Of a DNA stretch of 64,000 nt, positions 19,024-23,839 are shown piece after piece. Each line of letters begins with the position of its first letter. The first letter of the stretch is position 1. The notes under the pieces were generated by a model. The model was not told the DNA's origin. It was given only the letters and a program-made list of their open reading frames with translations, and did not search any database. The position numbers and the translations under genes are program-made. This DNA is from Candidatus Baltobacteraceae bacterium (GTDB taxonomy: Bacteria; Vulcanimicrobiota; Vulcanimicrobiia; Vulcanimicrobiales; Vulcanimicrobiaceae), in assembly GCA_036559195.1 (NCBI GenBank), contig DATBTN010000057.1, positions 62,001-126,000 of the forward strand, given 5' to 3'.

Positions 19024-21900
19024 TCATGCCCGCGGCGGCGCCCGCTTTTTGCGGGCTGCCTGCGACCGAATGCGGTCTGAAAAATCGTGAACGGCCGCCG
19101 AGCACAGCGCATCCATCGGGGCCTCGCGCAGCCACTGCACCCCGGTTTCGATCTCGCGGCTCAAGCGTGCCGTTCCGAGCGTCCCGGTAATGGCCCGTAC
19201 GGTTGCGTCGTGCGAGCGCTGCCACTGGGGGAGGAGAGCCTGGGCCGTGCGCTTGCGCAGGGCTTGTTCGGCTCCTAGAAACCGGGCGGCGAGTTCGGCG
19301 CTGCCCGCGTGCTGCAGGCACCAGGCAAACCCTTCAAAGCAGCCAGCGACGATACGCTCGTTGTGCTGCTCCAATCCGCGTTCCGCGCACTGCGCGAAAA
19401 GTTCGAAGGCGGCCTCCGGATCCTCGTCGTAACGCGCGATCGCGAGATTGAGCCGCCAGAACGTTCCTTGGAACGTTTCACCCGCACGCTCGGAAAGGTC
19501 GACGCTATCCTGGAGCGCCTCGATGCTCGCCCGGCGATCGCCGCAAACGGCCGCATACACGCCGTAGCCGCCGCGGGCGTAGGCCCGCAGCCAAAGATCG
19601 TCGGCGAAGCTTTCGGTCTCGGCGCTCGCGCTCTCGAGGTAGCGCGCGGCGGCCGCCCGATCGTTGCAAAAGAGCGCCGCAATCCCGGCGTGGATCCGTG
19701 TGATGACCGCGTCGCGCTCTTCGCCGATACGAGCGTACATCGTAAGGGCGCGCTCGAGGGCCTCGCCGGCCTCGACCACCGCGCCCTGCTGCAACGTGCA
19801 CAGACCGTAGGTACTTAAGGCGCGCGCGCCGGCGCGCGACGCCTCGGCCGGCGCCGCTCGCAGGATCTGCTCGCAATACGCCGATCCCTCGGCGAGCAGT
19901 CCGCGAAACCAATAGTACCAGCGCAGCGCGCCGAGCAATCGAAGGCGCCATTCGCGCACCTCCGAATCTTCGGTGCTCCATTCGAGGGCCGCGCGCAGGT
20001 TGTCGTTCTCCTGACTTAAGAGCGCCATCGCATGCGATTGACGATTCGTCGTCAGTTCCGATTCCAAACGTTCGGCAAGCAGCGCGAAGTATTCCAAATG
20101 TCGTCGCTGCGCGATGCGCTCTTCGTTCAAGTCGGCGAGTTTTTCGAGCAGATACTCCCGAATCGATTCGAGTAGACCGTAGCGGTTGTCATCGGCTCGC
20201 GGCACGGTGGTCACGAACGACTTGTCGACCAATCGTTCGAAAACGGCGAGCGCCTGCGTCGCATCGGCGTTCTCGGCACTGACCGAGATGGCGGCCTCGA
20301 GCGAAAAATGCCCGCGAAAAACGGCTAGCGACCGAAGCATGCGCGCTTCGTCCTCGACGAGCCGCTCGTAGCTCCAATCGATCGTTCCGCGCAGCGTTCT
20401 CTGATGCGGAACGGCGACCGGCGACGTACTTTTGAGCAACGCGAAGCGATCGTCCAGGTGTTCGAGAATCTGCCCCGGGCTGAGCGCGCGAGCGTGCGAG
20501 GCGGCGAGTTCGATCGCGAGCGGGATGCCGTCGAGTCTGCGCGTGATATCGCCGATGAGCGAAGCGTTCTGCTCCGTGAGCCGAAACTGCGGGTAGACGG
20601 CCGCTACTCGCTGGCAGAGCAACCGGACCGCGTCGTATTCGATAAGCTGCGGGCCGCCCGTTTCTTCTGGTTCCGGGACGCGCAGCGGGCGAACCTCGTA
20701 CACGACGCCGCCGGGAACGCCGAGCGATTCGCGGCTCGTCGCGAGGATCGTAACCTCACCCGCGGTCGTCAGCACGCGTTCGGCAAACTCCGAGCATGGA
20801 GCGATCATGCGCTCGCAATTATCCAGCACCAAGAGCACGTGTGCGTCGGCGAGTTCTTCGGCGATTCGCGCGTGGAGGTCGCGGTTCTCTACGTCGGCCA
20901 GACCCAGCGCGCTCGCAACCGTCGGAAGAAAGAACGCCTCCTGCGTGACGGGCGCGATCTCGATGAGGCGCACCCCGTCGCGATAGCGCTCGAGGCTGCG
21001 GCGCGCGAATTCGAATCCCAAGCGCGTCTTTCCAACGCCGGCCGGCCCGACCAGCGTGACGAGCCGCGCGGTTTCAAAGAGCGCGCCGATCTCTTCGAGT
21101 TCGGCGACTCGTCCCACGAACGTACTGATCGATGGAGGGATCGAGTGCGATCTCGTTTTTCGAACGTGTGAGACGTGTGGCACCGCACCCGCCCGCACGC
21201 GAACCATCGAGAGTACCGCCGCAGTCTCCGGCATCGGCTCCACGCCGATCTCGCGCTGCAGCGTTTCAGCAAACGTGCGATATTCTCGGACGGCGCCCGC
21301 GCGGTCGCCGCTCGCCGAGCGCAGTTCGATGAGGCCGCGAACGAAGTCCTCGCGCCACGGATCGCAGCGCAACGCCGTTTTCGCATACTCGATGGCGCGC
21401 GCGTAATCGCCGCTCGCGCGAGCGTTTTCTACGAGCGCACCGAGCGATTGGAGATGAAGTCCGCGCAGACGCTCGCGGCGATCGTTCAACCACTCTCCCT
21501 CGGTGGTCGCCATGAGGTCTCCCGCGTACAACGGCACCGCACTTGCCGCGTTGCCCTCGGCGACGTACCGCTCGTATTCGCGAACGTCGAACCAATACGG
21601 GGCATCGCGGTTCCACGAAATCGATCGCCGCTCGCTGATCAGCCACTCGGCTTCGGTGCGCGGCAGCGCGCGCTGCAAGAGATACACGGTTCGGCGCAGG
21701 TTGGCGCGCGCGTCCTCTTCGGGGTCGTCGGGCCAAAGCGCGAACGCGACCTCGTCACGAGGGATCGCCGCATTGCCGGCGAGCAGCAAAAAGGCGACGA
21801 CCGCGAGTCCGTTGGGCGGCAGCCGAAGCTCCGCCGGCGGCGAGCCGCTCGCGATCGAGCCCGCCCCGAAAAGGCGTATGGCCAGCCCCGGCAATTGCAT
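19024..21900 (-). CDS. SARP/AfsR-like regulator: BTAD, NB-ARC ATPase and TPR domains
   Basis: A 958-residue STAND-type transcription regulator. N-terminal OmpR/SARP winged helix (residues ~5-100, IRLFGAGSIASGSPPAELRLPP...LRRTVYLLQRALP), bacterial transcriptional activation domain (~105-240), NB-ARC ATPase with Walker A GPAGVGKT at 285-292 and Walker B VLLVLDNCE near 350, then a long TPR-like helical array to the C-terminus (RALSTYGLCTLQQGAVVEAGEAL). Such proteins act as ATP-dependent switches, often for secondary metabolite genes. It is transcribed divergently from the YcaO peptide locus across a 151-bp gap and is the obvious candidate regulator for it; that link is inference. Confidence 0.9.
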   Translation of the reverse strand: MQLPGLAIRLFGAGSIASGSPPAELRLPPNGLAVVAFLLLAGNAAIPRDEVAFALWPDDPEEDARANLRRTVYLLQRALPRTEAEWLISERRSISWNRDAPYWFDVREYERYVAEGNAASAVPLYAGDLMATTEGEWLNDRRERLRGLHLQSLGALVENARASGDYARAIEYAKTALRCDPWREDFVRGLIELRSASGDRAGAVREYRTFAETLQREIGVEPMPETAAVLSMVRVRAGAVPHVSHVRKTRSHSIPPSISTFVGRVAELEEIGALFETARLVTLVGPAGVGKTRLGFEFARRSLERYRDGVRLIEIAPVTQEAFFLPTVASALGLADVENRDLHARIAEELADAHVLLVLDNCERMIAPCSEFAERVLTTAGEVTILATSRESLGVPGGVVYEVRPLRVPEPEETGGPQLIEYDAVRLLCQRVAAVYPQFRLTEQNASLIGDITRRLDGIPLAIELAASHARALSPGQILEHLDDRFALLKSTSPVAVPHQRTLRGTIDWSYERLVEDEARMLRSLAVFRGHFSLEAAISVSAENADATQALAVFERLVDKSFVTTVPRADDNRYGLLESIREYLLEKLADLNEERIAQRRHLEYFALLAERLESELTTNRQSHAMALLSQENDNLRAALEWSTEDSEVREWRLRLLGALRWYYWFRGLLAEGSAYCEQILRAAPAEASRAGARALSTYGLCTLQQGAVVEAGEALERALTMYARIGEERDAVITRIHAGIAALFCNDRAAAARYLESASAETESFADDLWLRAYARGGYGVYAAVCGDRRASIEALQDSVDLSERAGETFQGTFWRLNLAIARYDEDPEAAFELFAQCAERGLEQHNERIVAGCFEGFAWCLQHAGSAELAARFLGAEQALRKRTAQALLPQWQRSHDATVRAITGTLGTARLSREIETGVQWLREAPMDALCSAAVHDFSDRIRSQAARKKRAPPRA

Positions 21901-22051: not shown

Positions 22052-22186
22052 GTGGAACTGAAGTTGAATCGCAAAGAGCAGACCAGCGAACGGATCGCAC
22101 AGCCGGACGACCTTCGCACGCATCTCGTTCATCGGGCCGGCGCCGCTGGATCGGGACTCTTTCCGGGATGGGGCCCGAAGCTTTGA
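22052..22186 (+). CDS. Candidate RiPP precursor peptide (44 residues)
   Basis: A GTG at 22052 preceded by AGGAG with 6-nt spacing, the best ribosome site in this part of the window, opens a 44-codon frame ending TGA at 22184-22186. The peptide has a charged, leader-like N-terminal half (MELKLNRKEQTSERIAQPDD) and a Gly/Pro/aromatic C-terminal half (AGAAGSGLFPGWGPKL). It is followed by a 9-bp hairpin, an unknown 105-residue protein and a YcaO enzyme. Size, charge split, strong translation signal and neighbours fit a modified-peptide precursor. The putative core has one Ser, no Cys and no Thr, so azoline formation is limited to Ser33; backbone thioamide or amidine chemistry is the alternative. 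The frame could still be a fortuitous ORF. Confidence 0.6.
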   Translation: MELKLNRKEQTSERIAQPDDLRTHLVHRAGAAGSGLFPGWGPKL

Positions 22187-22198
22187 TCGGAAGGACTT

Positions 22199-22234
22199 GC
22201 GGACGGGGTGGCATCGGACTTACGTCCCGTCCGC
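22199..22234 (+). terminator. Hairpin after the peptide gene (possible attenuator)
   Basis: GCGGACGGG (22199-22207) pairs perfectly with CCCGTCCGC (22226-22234) around an 18-nt loop, 13 nt after the peptide stop. It is followed by only TTTGG, so it is a weak intrinsic terminator at best. Partial termination or mRNA stabilisation here would give more precursor than enzyme transcript, as seen in many RiPP operons. Confidence 0.45.
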
Positions 22235-22319
22235 TTTGGTGCGATGATCCTCTTCCGTAGCGGCCGCATAGGAGTGCGCCGGGGCGGCGTCATAGGCGAG
22301 ATGACGGAGGGTTCTACGC

Positions 22320-22637
22320 ATGCCCTTAACATCGGATCAAGTGCGCGACTACGCGCAGAACTACGTCGGCGCGATGCTGCTCGATAAGCGCGTTCGCGAC
22401 GACGTCAACGCCGCCGGCGATCACGATGCGCCGGACTACCACAAGAAGCTCGCGACTGCGCTCGGGCGGCATCTGCAGCCAAAGGCCGCTTTTAGCGAGG
22501 ACGACGCCGCATCGATCTGCCGCTACGCGGGCGAACATCTGCAAGACTTCCGCCGGCATCTGGAGAGCGTCGCACCCGGTGCGGCGGAGTCGATCGGGCC
22601 GTACGTCGACGGGTTTCACGCTCAGACGCGGGAGTGA
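22320..22637 (+). CDS. Unknown 105-residue helical protein paired with YcaO
   Basis: The ATG at 22320 has GGAGGG 8 nt upstream. The product is mainly helical, acidic and soluble (VRDYAQNYVGAMLLDKRVRDDVNAAGDHDAPDYHKKLATALGRHL; DDAASICRYAGEHLQDFRRHLESV), with six His and one Cys, no signal peptide and no membrane segment. I do not recognise it. Its stop overlaps the YcaO start (GTGA), implying translational coupling and probably a physical partnership. It is too acidic and long to look like a second precursor; it may replace the E1-like/ocin-ThiF or TfuA partner that many YcaO enzymes need, neither of which is nearby. Confidence 0.7.
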   Translation: MPLTSDQVRDYAQNYVGAMLLDKRVRDDVNAAGDHDAPDYHKKLATALGRHLQPKAAFSEDDAASICRYAGEHLQDFRRHLESVAPGAAESIGPYVDGFHAQTRE

Positions 22638-23839
22638 GTTCGCGCGCTCTCGACGAGGCGCTGGCGCGCCTGCCGGAACTTCGGCGGCGATTTGACATTA
22701 CGCGCGTTTGCGAGACCACTCGTTTGGATCGAGCGTGCGTCCCGATGATGAGCGCGATCGTTCCCAACTCGCCCGACGACGTGAGCGTGTATAACGGGCG
22801 GGGCCGCACCCGCGATGAGGCGCTCGTCGGAGCGGTGATGGAGGCCGTCGAGCGCCAGACGGCGGCGCGCTGCGAATTAGCGCAGCGTACGATGAGACCG
22901 GATGCGATCGAAGGCGGTCTCGATCTGCGCGCCGCCGGCCTGCGCTCCGGCTACGCGGGCGTCGAGATGCCGTTCGTCCGCGGCCTGGACGTTGCGAACG
23001 GCGAAACGGTTTTCGTCCCCACCGCACTCGTGCAGATGCCGTGGCGCGGCCTTCCCGCGTTCGCGACCACGCATACGAACGGACTGGCGGCCGCTTTTTC
23101 GAAAATCGATGCGATTCGCCGCGCGTTGCTCGAACTTCTCGAACGGCATCTTTGGGCGCTCACGCACGCCGGAGCGCACCTGCGTCCGAAGCGGATTCTG
23201 CGCGCGTCCTTACGGTGCGATCTCGCCTTCGTCGACGATCCGGTTGACGAGTTGGTCTTGCCGTGCGGCGACGAGCGAGTCGATGACCTCGCGCTGCGTA
23301 TTCGGGCGGCAGGCCTGACGCTGCGCGTGGTGGTGATGCGGGCTCACGGTCTGCCGCTTGCAATGTGCGCGACCGTGCGCGAAAGCGAGACGGGGATCGA
23401 ACGCGCTCACACGGGGTTGGGCGCCGCATGGTGCCCTGCCGATGCGGCGGTGCGGGCGATCACCGAGGCCATGCAGGCGCGGGTGGCCGACACCCAAGCG
23501 GCGCGCGAAAATATTCTGCGCGCAGGTGACGAACGAGGATCGTTCTCGGAGCACACGCGTCGCGGGCGCGCCCCCGCGTATGGACGCTGGTACTTCGACG
23601 GACCGACGTCGCCGGTCGATCTGGGTGCGCTCGAAGATTCGAGCGGTCCGGATATAGCCGGCGAAACGCGCAGACTCATCGCCGCCGTGAAGCGGCTGGC
23701 CGCCCGAATCGTGGTGGTAGACCTTTCGCCGCCGGATGGCGGCTACGCGGTCGTGCGCGCGATCGTGCCCGAATTGGAGACGACGCTAATCGACGGCAGA
23801 ATCGGCTCCCTCGCCAAGCACGTCGTTGCGGGCGCGTAG
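22634..23839 (+). CDS. YcaO-family ATP-dependent peptide-backbone modifying enzyme
   Basis: YcaO enzymes activate backbone amides with ATP to make azolines, thioamides or amidines in ribosomal peptides. The three ATP/Mg-binding helices are recognisable: GAVMEAVERQTAARCE, THTNGLAAAFSKIDAIRRALLELLERHLWAL, and ADAAVRAITEAMQARVADTQAARE, followed by the typical C-terminal strand GYAVVRAIVPELE. The protein has 401 residues and ends AGA, without the PxPxP tail of many azoline cyclodehydratases. The GTG start at 22634 overlaps the upstream stop. No E1-like, ThiF or TfuA gene is adjacent. Convergent with, and overlapping by 54 bp, the nitronate monooxygenase gene. The substrate is probably the peptide at 22052 (inference). 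Confidence 0.88.
   Translation: MSSRALDEALARLPELRRRFDITRVCETTRLDRACVPMMSAIVPNSPDDVSVYNGRGRTRDEALVGAVMEAVERQTAARCELAQRTMRPDAIEGGLDLRAAGLRSGYAGVEMPFVRGLDVANGETVFVPTALVQMPWRGLPAFATTHTNGLAAAFSKIDAIRRALLELLERHLWALTHAGAHLRPKRILRASLRCDLAFVDDPVDELVLPCGDERVDDLALRIRAAGLTLRVVVMRAHGLPLAMCATVRESETGIERAHTGLGAAWCPADAAVRAITEAMQARVADTQAARENILRAGDERGSFSEHTRRGRAPAYGRWYFDGPTSPVDLGALEDSSGPDIAGETRRLIAAVKRLAARIVVVDLSPPDGGYAVVRAIVPELETTLIDGRIGSLAKHVVAGA

Follow-up and report, generated by a model that had tools for sequence, protein, structure and literature searches.

A probable reduced YcaO/TfuA-type RiPP locus in an Eremiobacterota genome, with a divergent precursor and a separate family of short peptides

Described systems related to the locus

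The closest described systems are the YcaO/TfuA pathways for thioamide RiPPs such as thioviridamide and the thiovarsolins (PMC6511847; PMC8120280). The locus considered here shares with them the presence of a YcaO and a TfuA in one genome, fused in several of its relatives, and a precursor with a C-terminal core, repeated in one relative. It differs from them in its leader, which is about 80 residues long, predicted to be folded and undetected in Pfam, NCBIfam, the PDB and loci outside the phylum, and also in that TfuA does not stand next to the YcaO gene. Thioamide-forming YcaOs receive their sulphur with the help of TfuA (PMC13063428).

A long, helical and independently folded leader followed by a short variable core has also been described for nitrile hydratase-like and Nif11 precursors (PMC2887384; PMC12455567), and a YcaO is known to use leaders of this kind (PMC12455567). 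That enzyme, however, forms azolines and carries a recognition domain. The YcaO studied here has no such domain, and its putative precursor gave neither a profile match nor a PDB fold match to these leaders. The archaeal YcaO/TfuA system for thioamidation of a McrA glycine (PMC5589413) provides the closest solved structures as well as the NCBIfam profiles that YcaO and TfuA match best. Nevertheless, the scores fall under the curated cut-offs, and a dedicated small precursor is the likely substrate instead of McrA. A fourth comparison concerns the YtrA-type GntR/ABC transporter operons, since most peptides of the FxGWGPK(L/F)-stop kind treated below are encoded by the first ORF in an operon of this type. 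No peptide ORF of this kind was described for these operons in the papers searched, and the peptide considered here adjoins a SARP-type regulator instead.

Organization of the locus

The window, meaning the whole 64-kb stretch of DNA that was analysed, belongs to a draft genome of 2.48 Mb that is 97% complete. The features of the locus are as follows.

19024-21900, minus strand: BTAD (SARP-type)/AAA/TPR regulator of 958 aa (Pfam), divergent from the small genes
22052-22186, plus strand: gene for a 44-aa peptide (GTG start, 44 codons), with the ribosome site GTAGGAGATCACC ahead
22199-22234, plus strand: hairpin of 12 bp between the 44-mer and precursor genes
22320-22637, plus strand: ORF of 105 codons (ATG start, GGAGG ahead), the most likely precursor peptide
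22593-22634, plus strand: putative C-terminal core IGPYVDGFHAQTRE, about residues 92-105 of the 105-aa protein
22634-23839, plus strand: YcaO enzyme gene (GTG start, 401 aa, PF02624)
23090-23122, plus strand: altered ATP/Mg motif of the YcaO, residues 153-163, from comparison of clade positions

The original prediction of three ORFs with ribosome sites and a coupled YcaO was confirmed in its coordinates and starts, and the YcaO start overlaps the stop of the 105-aa ORF by 4 nt (GTGA). The proposed identities of the two large proteins were equally upheld: the YcaO matches PF02624 with 140.5 bits (cut-off 25.7) over residues 54-382 and the catalytic domain is present, while the 958-aa protein, named a SARP/NB-ARC regulator, shows BTAD, AAA and weak NB-ARC matches in Pfam. 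Per-codon codon-usage scores resemble those of long genes, and because the 44-mer, the 105-aa ORF and YcaO each have homologues, none of the three is a chance ORF. The hairpin of 12 bp is present on the plus strand, but the stretch folds with an energy that does not surpass that of shuffled versions of its GC-rich sequence (z=-0.4 and 0.07). The region also yielded nothing credible in Rfam, and on these two grounds a role as attenuator was rejected.

The annotated flanking genes encode a nitronate monooxygenase, an Na/H exchanger, a SpoIIE/GAF protein and the BTAD regulator; neither an E1-like/ocin-ThiF partner nor a fused recognition domain was found in them or in the YcaO. Within the 64-kb window there is no homologue of the relatives' TfuA, methyltransferase, LuxR-type regulator or solute-binding protein. 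The single TfuA of this genome is located at C13:10781-11425, apart from both YcaO loci, of which the second, a conventional YcaO/precursor locus, lies on contig C66. TfuA is likewise found on a separate contig in one relative (G013).

A precursor family that accompanies the YcaO clade

As predicted, the 105-aa protein matches no family in Pfam or NCBIfam, and a single-sequence search with it found no match in 59 relatives; its family was detectable only via YcaO neighbourhoods combined with a profile. Genes were called in 20 YcaO neighbourhoods of relatives, in which an ORF of 89-101 aa with a strong ribosome site recurs near YcaO and usually faces a LuxR-type AAA regulator. TfuA occurs in these loci either as a separate gene or fused to YcaO, adjoining or fused in most relatives, and methyltransferases are found nearby. 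A profile of 22 such precursor ORFs, built without the window protein (leave-one-out), matched the 105-aa protein with E=1.2e-6, the sole hit among 459 window ORFs (next 2.9).

Among 98 Eremiobacterota genomes searched, the YcaO clade (38-46% identity) and the precursor family are present in the identical 20, own genome counted, and neither was found in the other 78. The precursor adjoins YcaO in all 20, although these genomes are related and hence do not represent 20 independent events. TfuA is present in each of them and additionally in two distant genomes. A GTDB scan with a single YcaO query gave no match; the scan with a YcaO alignment revealed the precursor family in 16/16 Eremiobacterota loci and in 0/64 loci outside the phylum. 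The idea of a YcaO-dependent RiPP-type locus is supported, with a conserved small ORF beside this YcaO clade in 20/20 genomes. In contrast, the term 'new class' was too strong, as the relatives are YcaO/TfuA clusters, some of them fused, of a known kind with an undescribed precursor family. The 105-aa protein, earlier proposed as a new partner of YcaO, turns out to be homologous to the precursor peptides of these clusters.

In the alignment, precursor-family ORFs have a common leader of ~75-80 residues and then a short variable end, often ..AP..VG....MQQ. The 105-aa protein is predicted to be all-helical (AF2, pLDDT 86.7), with the helix of the model continuing to the C-terminal end at falling confidence. 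For the precursor of a typical relative, AF2 models residues 3-78 confidently and the last 16 at low pLDDT, a pattern that would correspond to a folded leader and a flexible core. Fold searches of the PDB with the window precursor and with that of the typical relative gave no match at E<=0.001. Leaders of the NHLP or Nif11 type were considered and rejected, neither the window ORF nor its relatives giving a profile match at E<=1 or a PDB fold match. Weak PDB sequence matches of the leader to protein A repeats were judged to be helical-bundle artefacts.

A further member of the family is the precursor of G033 (L040:6097-6564), a protein of 155 aa that adjoins TfuA and two YcaO genes and carries five tandem HVGxxFVVQ units with xDAPS linkers between them. 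Relatives with a single core end in the motif ..AP..VG....MQQ, similar to these units. Since the five repeats are hard to explain otherwise, they argue for the C-terminus being the product-forming core. The core of the window protein shows no close likeness to those of the relatives, and a leader-core precursor beside YcaO is recognized here by homology alone. The 105-aa protein is a divergent member of the family and most likely the precursor here, comprising a predicted all-helical, folded leader (~80 residues; about 1-85) and a short C-terminal core, which would be placed at about residues 92-105.

Two further precursor variants, at L125:7150-7443 and L126:7148-7468, have longer Asn/Gly-rich ends (NPICIFNGANGPAND).

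Proposed function of the locus

The window probably holds a reduced YcaO/TfuA (thioamide-type) RiPP locus, consisting of the 105-aa precursor and a co-translated YcaO, with TfuA in trans and the 44-mer as a separate module. We infer that the YcaO binds and recognizes the long folded leader, and it would then modify the peptide backbone of the short C-terminal core. Because the enzyme is related to TfuA-linked and archaeal YcaOs, thioamidation would be the most likely reaction, and the product would be a thioamide. Sulphur would be supplied by the single TfuA encoded on contig C13, whereas methylation, cleavage and export would depend on genes elsewhere, and the SARP-type protein together with the WGPKL peptide possibly regulates the locus. 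Counting against this proposal, TfuA, the methyltransferase and the LuxR-type regulator, all standard in relatives, are missing at the window locus.

Systems of this kind have been described before. What looks new, as far as the searched libraries and papers go, is the precursor family and the arrangement with TfuA in trans; subscription journals and preprint servers were incompletely covered. The precursor leader family is absent from the profile libraries searched, and the locus provides a testable set of precursor, enzyme and sulphur donor for a YcaO/TfuA peptide family in the poorly studied phylum Eremiobacterota.

The 44-mer and the FxGWGPK(L/F) peptides

The 44-mer ends in LFPGWGPKL and has no match in Pfam or NCBIfam. 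One clear homologue was found among the relatives, in G028 (44% identity, pairwise E=6e-13), together with many short ORFs that are alike only at the end. The family is defined here as ORFs of 34-52 aa with a ribosome site and FxGWGPK(L/F) directly at the stop, to which the 44-mer belongs (loci L083-L112 and L194-L206, e.g. L083:1411-1521 and L194:7014-7151, besides 22052-22186 of the window). Of 149 genomes from the phylum, 43 contain the GWGPK(L/F)-stop pattern and 1 contains the reversed control pattern, and no FxGWGPK pattern was found in viral contigs. Sampling gave 41 distinct peptides of 34-52 aa, one of them truncated where its contig ends. Of the 41, 31 stop 3-51 nt ahead of a YtrA-like GntR gene, followed by an ABC transporter in the cases read; DUF4097, PadR-like or ECF-like genes come after others, and a few are followed by no gene. 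Third codon positions vary, indicating that amino acids rather than codons are conserved, and the conservation covers no more than about the last 8 residues. The peptides form a separate family that looks new within the same libraries and papers, with the same incomplete coverage of subscription journals and preprint servers. The family is found phylum-wide; its members are very short, their C-terminus is strictly conserved, and automated annotation is likely to miss them.

At L196:803-940, a second peptide with the end VFGGWGVRI-stop lies ~1.1 kb before a GWGPKL-stop peptide, suggesting that the C-terminal motif may have variants missed by the pattern search.

The 44-mer and the regulator are paired in evolution. 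In the genomes searched, the protein most closely related to the window regulator is encoded on contig C99 of G028 (48% identity, 556 bits). It lies 91 nt upstream of the nearest 44-mer homologue, while the YcaO of G028 sits on another contig. As the closest relatives of 44-mer and regulator adjoin each other and not the YcaO, the 44-mer is tied to the regulator. It forms a separate module with the SARP-type regulator, serving perhaps as a peptide signal for it or as a short ORF with a regulatory role ahead of the precursor/YcaO genes. A broader, tentative suggestion is that the FxGWGPK(L/F)-stop peptides are new phylum-wide regulatory peptides, acting as nascent chains or released signals with GntR/ABC, SARP-type and other operons, and that the window 44-mer and the SARP/STAND-type regulator control an unusual TfuA-in-trans YcaO RiPP pathway. 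Should ribosomes or STAND-type regulators be the targets of these peptides, a new control linking short ORFs to transporters and peptide biosynthesis would be implied.

It is possible, if on balance doubtful, that the 44-mer serves specifically as a short regulatory ORF within the transcript of precursor and YcaO, and that its conserved C-terminus would alter downstream translation as a nascent chain at termination; this would be compatible with the reduced YcaO/TfuA locus proposed above. The short distances to the GntR genes, the position of other family members just ahead of DUF4097, PadR-like and ECF-like genes, and the conservation of amino acids over only the last residues are consistent with such a role. 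However, the gap to the next gene in the window is 134 nt, the hairpin within it is not significant against shuffles, and in G028, G043 and G051 no gene follows on the strand of the peptide, so that not every copy can be a leader.

The YcaO enzyme and alternative readings

A maximum-likelihood tree places the window YcaO inside the precursor-linked clade of Eremiobacterota with support 100/100, and its neighbours are the f2-family enzymes (97/81). Its branch of 1.16 is the longest in the clade, and it departs from the clade at 13 of 82 conserved positions, compared with 0-7 in 19 relatives. Several of the changes fall in the motif with which YcaOs bind ATP/Mg, where otherwise invariant residues are lost: SGN..E..YH of the clade reads AAF..D..RR in the window enzyme. 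Given the longest branch and these substitutions, the activity of the YcaO is uncertain. The motif change is no proof of inactivity, since the M. kandleri YcaO, a TfuA-independent thioamidating enzyme (PMC6511847), is also without the Asn and has Arg at its position.

These data bear on the view that the locus in the window has diverged as a paralogue and is in the course of losing or altering its function, with the ATP-dependent reaction lost or altered and the C66 copy keeping the original activity. The divergence of the enzyme, the absence of TfuA, methyltransferase and LuxR-type regulator, and the conventional second locus in the same genome all speak for this view. Nevertheless, it is considered unlikely: the reading frames of the 105-aa protein and YcaO are both unbroken and show the codon usage of genes, their translational coupling is retained, the other conserved Glu residues of the YcaO (70, 73, 167 and 170) are kept, and the M. 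kandleri enzyme has Arg at the Asn position of the motif.

The original reading, in which the 44-mer is the substrate and the 105-aa protein a new type of YcaO partner, is now quite improbable. In its favour, the three genes are adjacent with strong ribosome sites, and the 44-mer is a real, conserved peptide. Yet the homologues of the 105-aa protein are precursors with a leader and a core, including one with several cores. The check proposed for co-occurrence succeeded for the 105-aa family, which goes together with YcaO in 20/98 genomes, but failed for the 44-mer family, whose members stand beside GntR/ABC, DUF4097, PadR-like and other genes, also in the many genomes without this YcaO clade. 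Even the closest relative of the 44-mer adjoins the regulator homologue and not the YcaO of that genome. The 44-mer is thus probably not the YcaO substrate.

Although YcaOs that modify ribosomal proteins exist (PMC13063428), action on a large cellular protein such as uL16 or S12 instead of a peptide deserves hardly any weight, as a dedicated small ORF accompanies the YcaO gene in every case and TfuA, reported in that paper not to be found with uL16-type YcaOs, co-occurs here. The clade profile best matches MJ1094 among PDB entries (E=6e-55), with the M. kandleri YcaO also close and E. coli YcaO the weakest match (E=3e-5). The enzyme is accordingly nearest to the archaeal thioamide type and not to the E. 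coli S12/uL16 type; clustering with the latter kind had been named as evidence against a peptide substrate. The best NCBIfam profile, that of the McrA-glycine thioamidation YcaO (TIGR03266), gave 130.5 bits, under its cut-off of 365, and the SagD profile scored far under its own.

Fusion of TfuA to the N-terminus of YcaO is observed at L033-L037, L041 and L042 (~650-aa ORFs), followed by a methyltransferase gene. In the subclade of the window enzyme (L029, the C66 locus of the same genome, and L030-L032), a family-5 solute-binding protein is encoded near YcaO and overlaps the YcaO start in L029; it possibly serves in sensing or uptake of the peptide.
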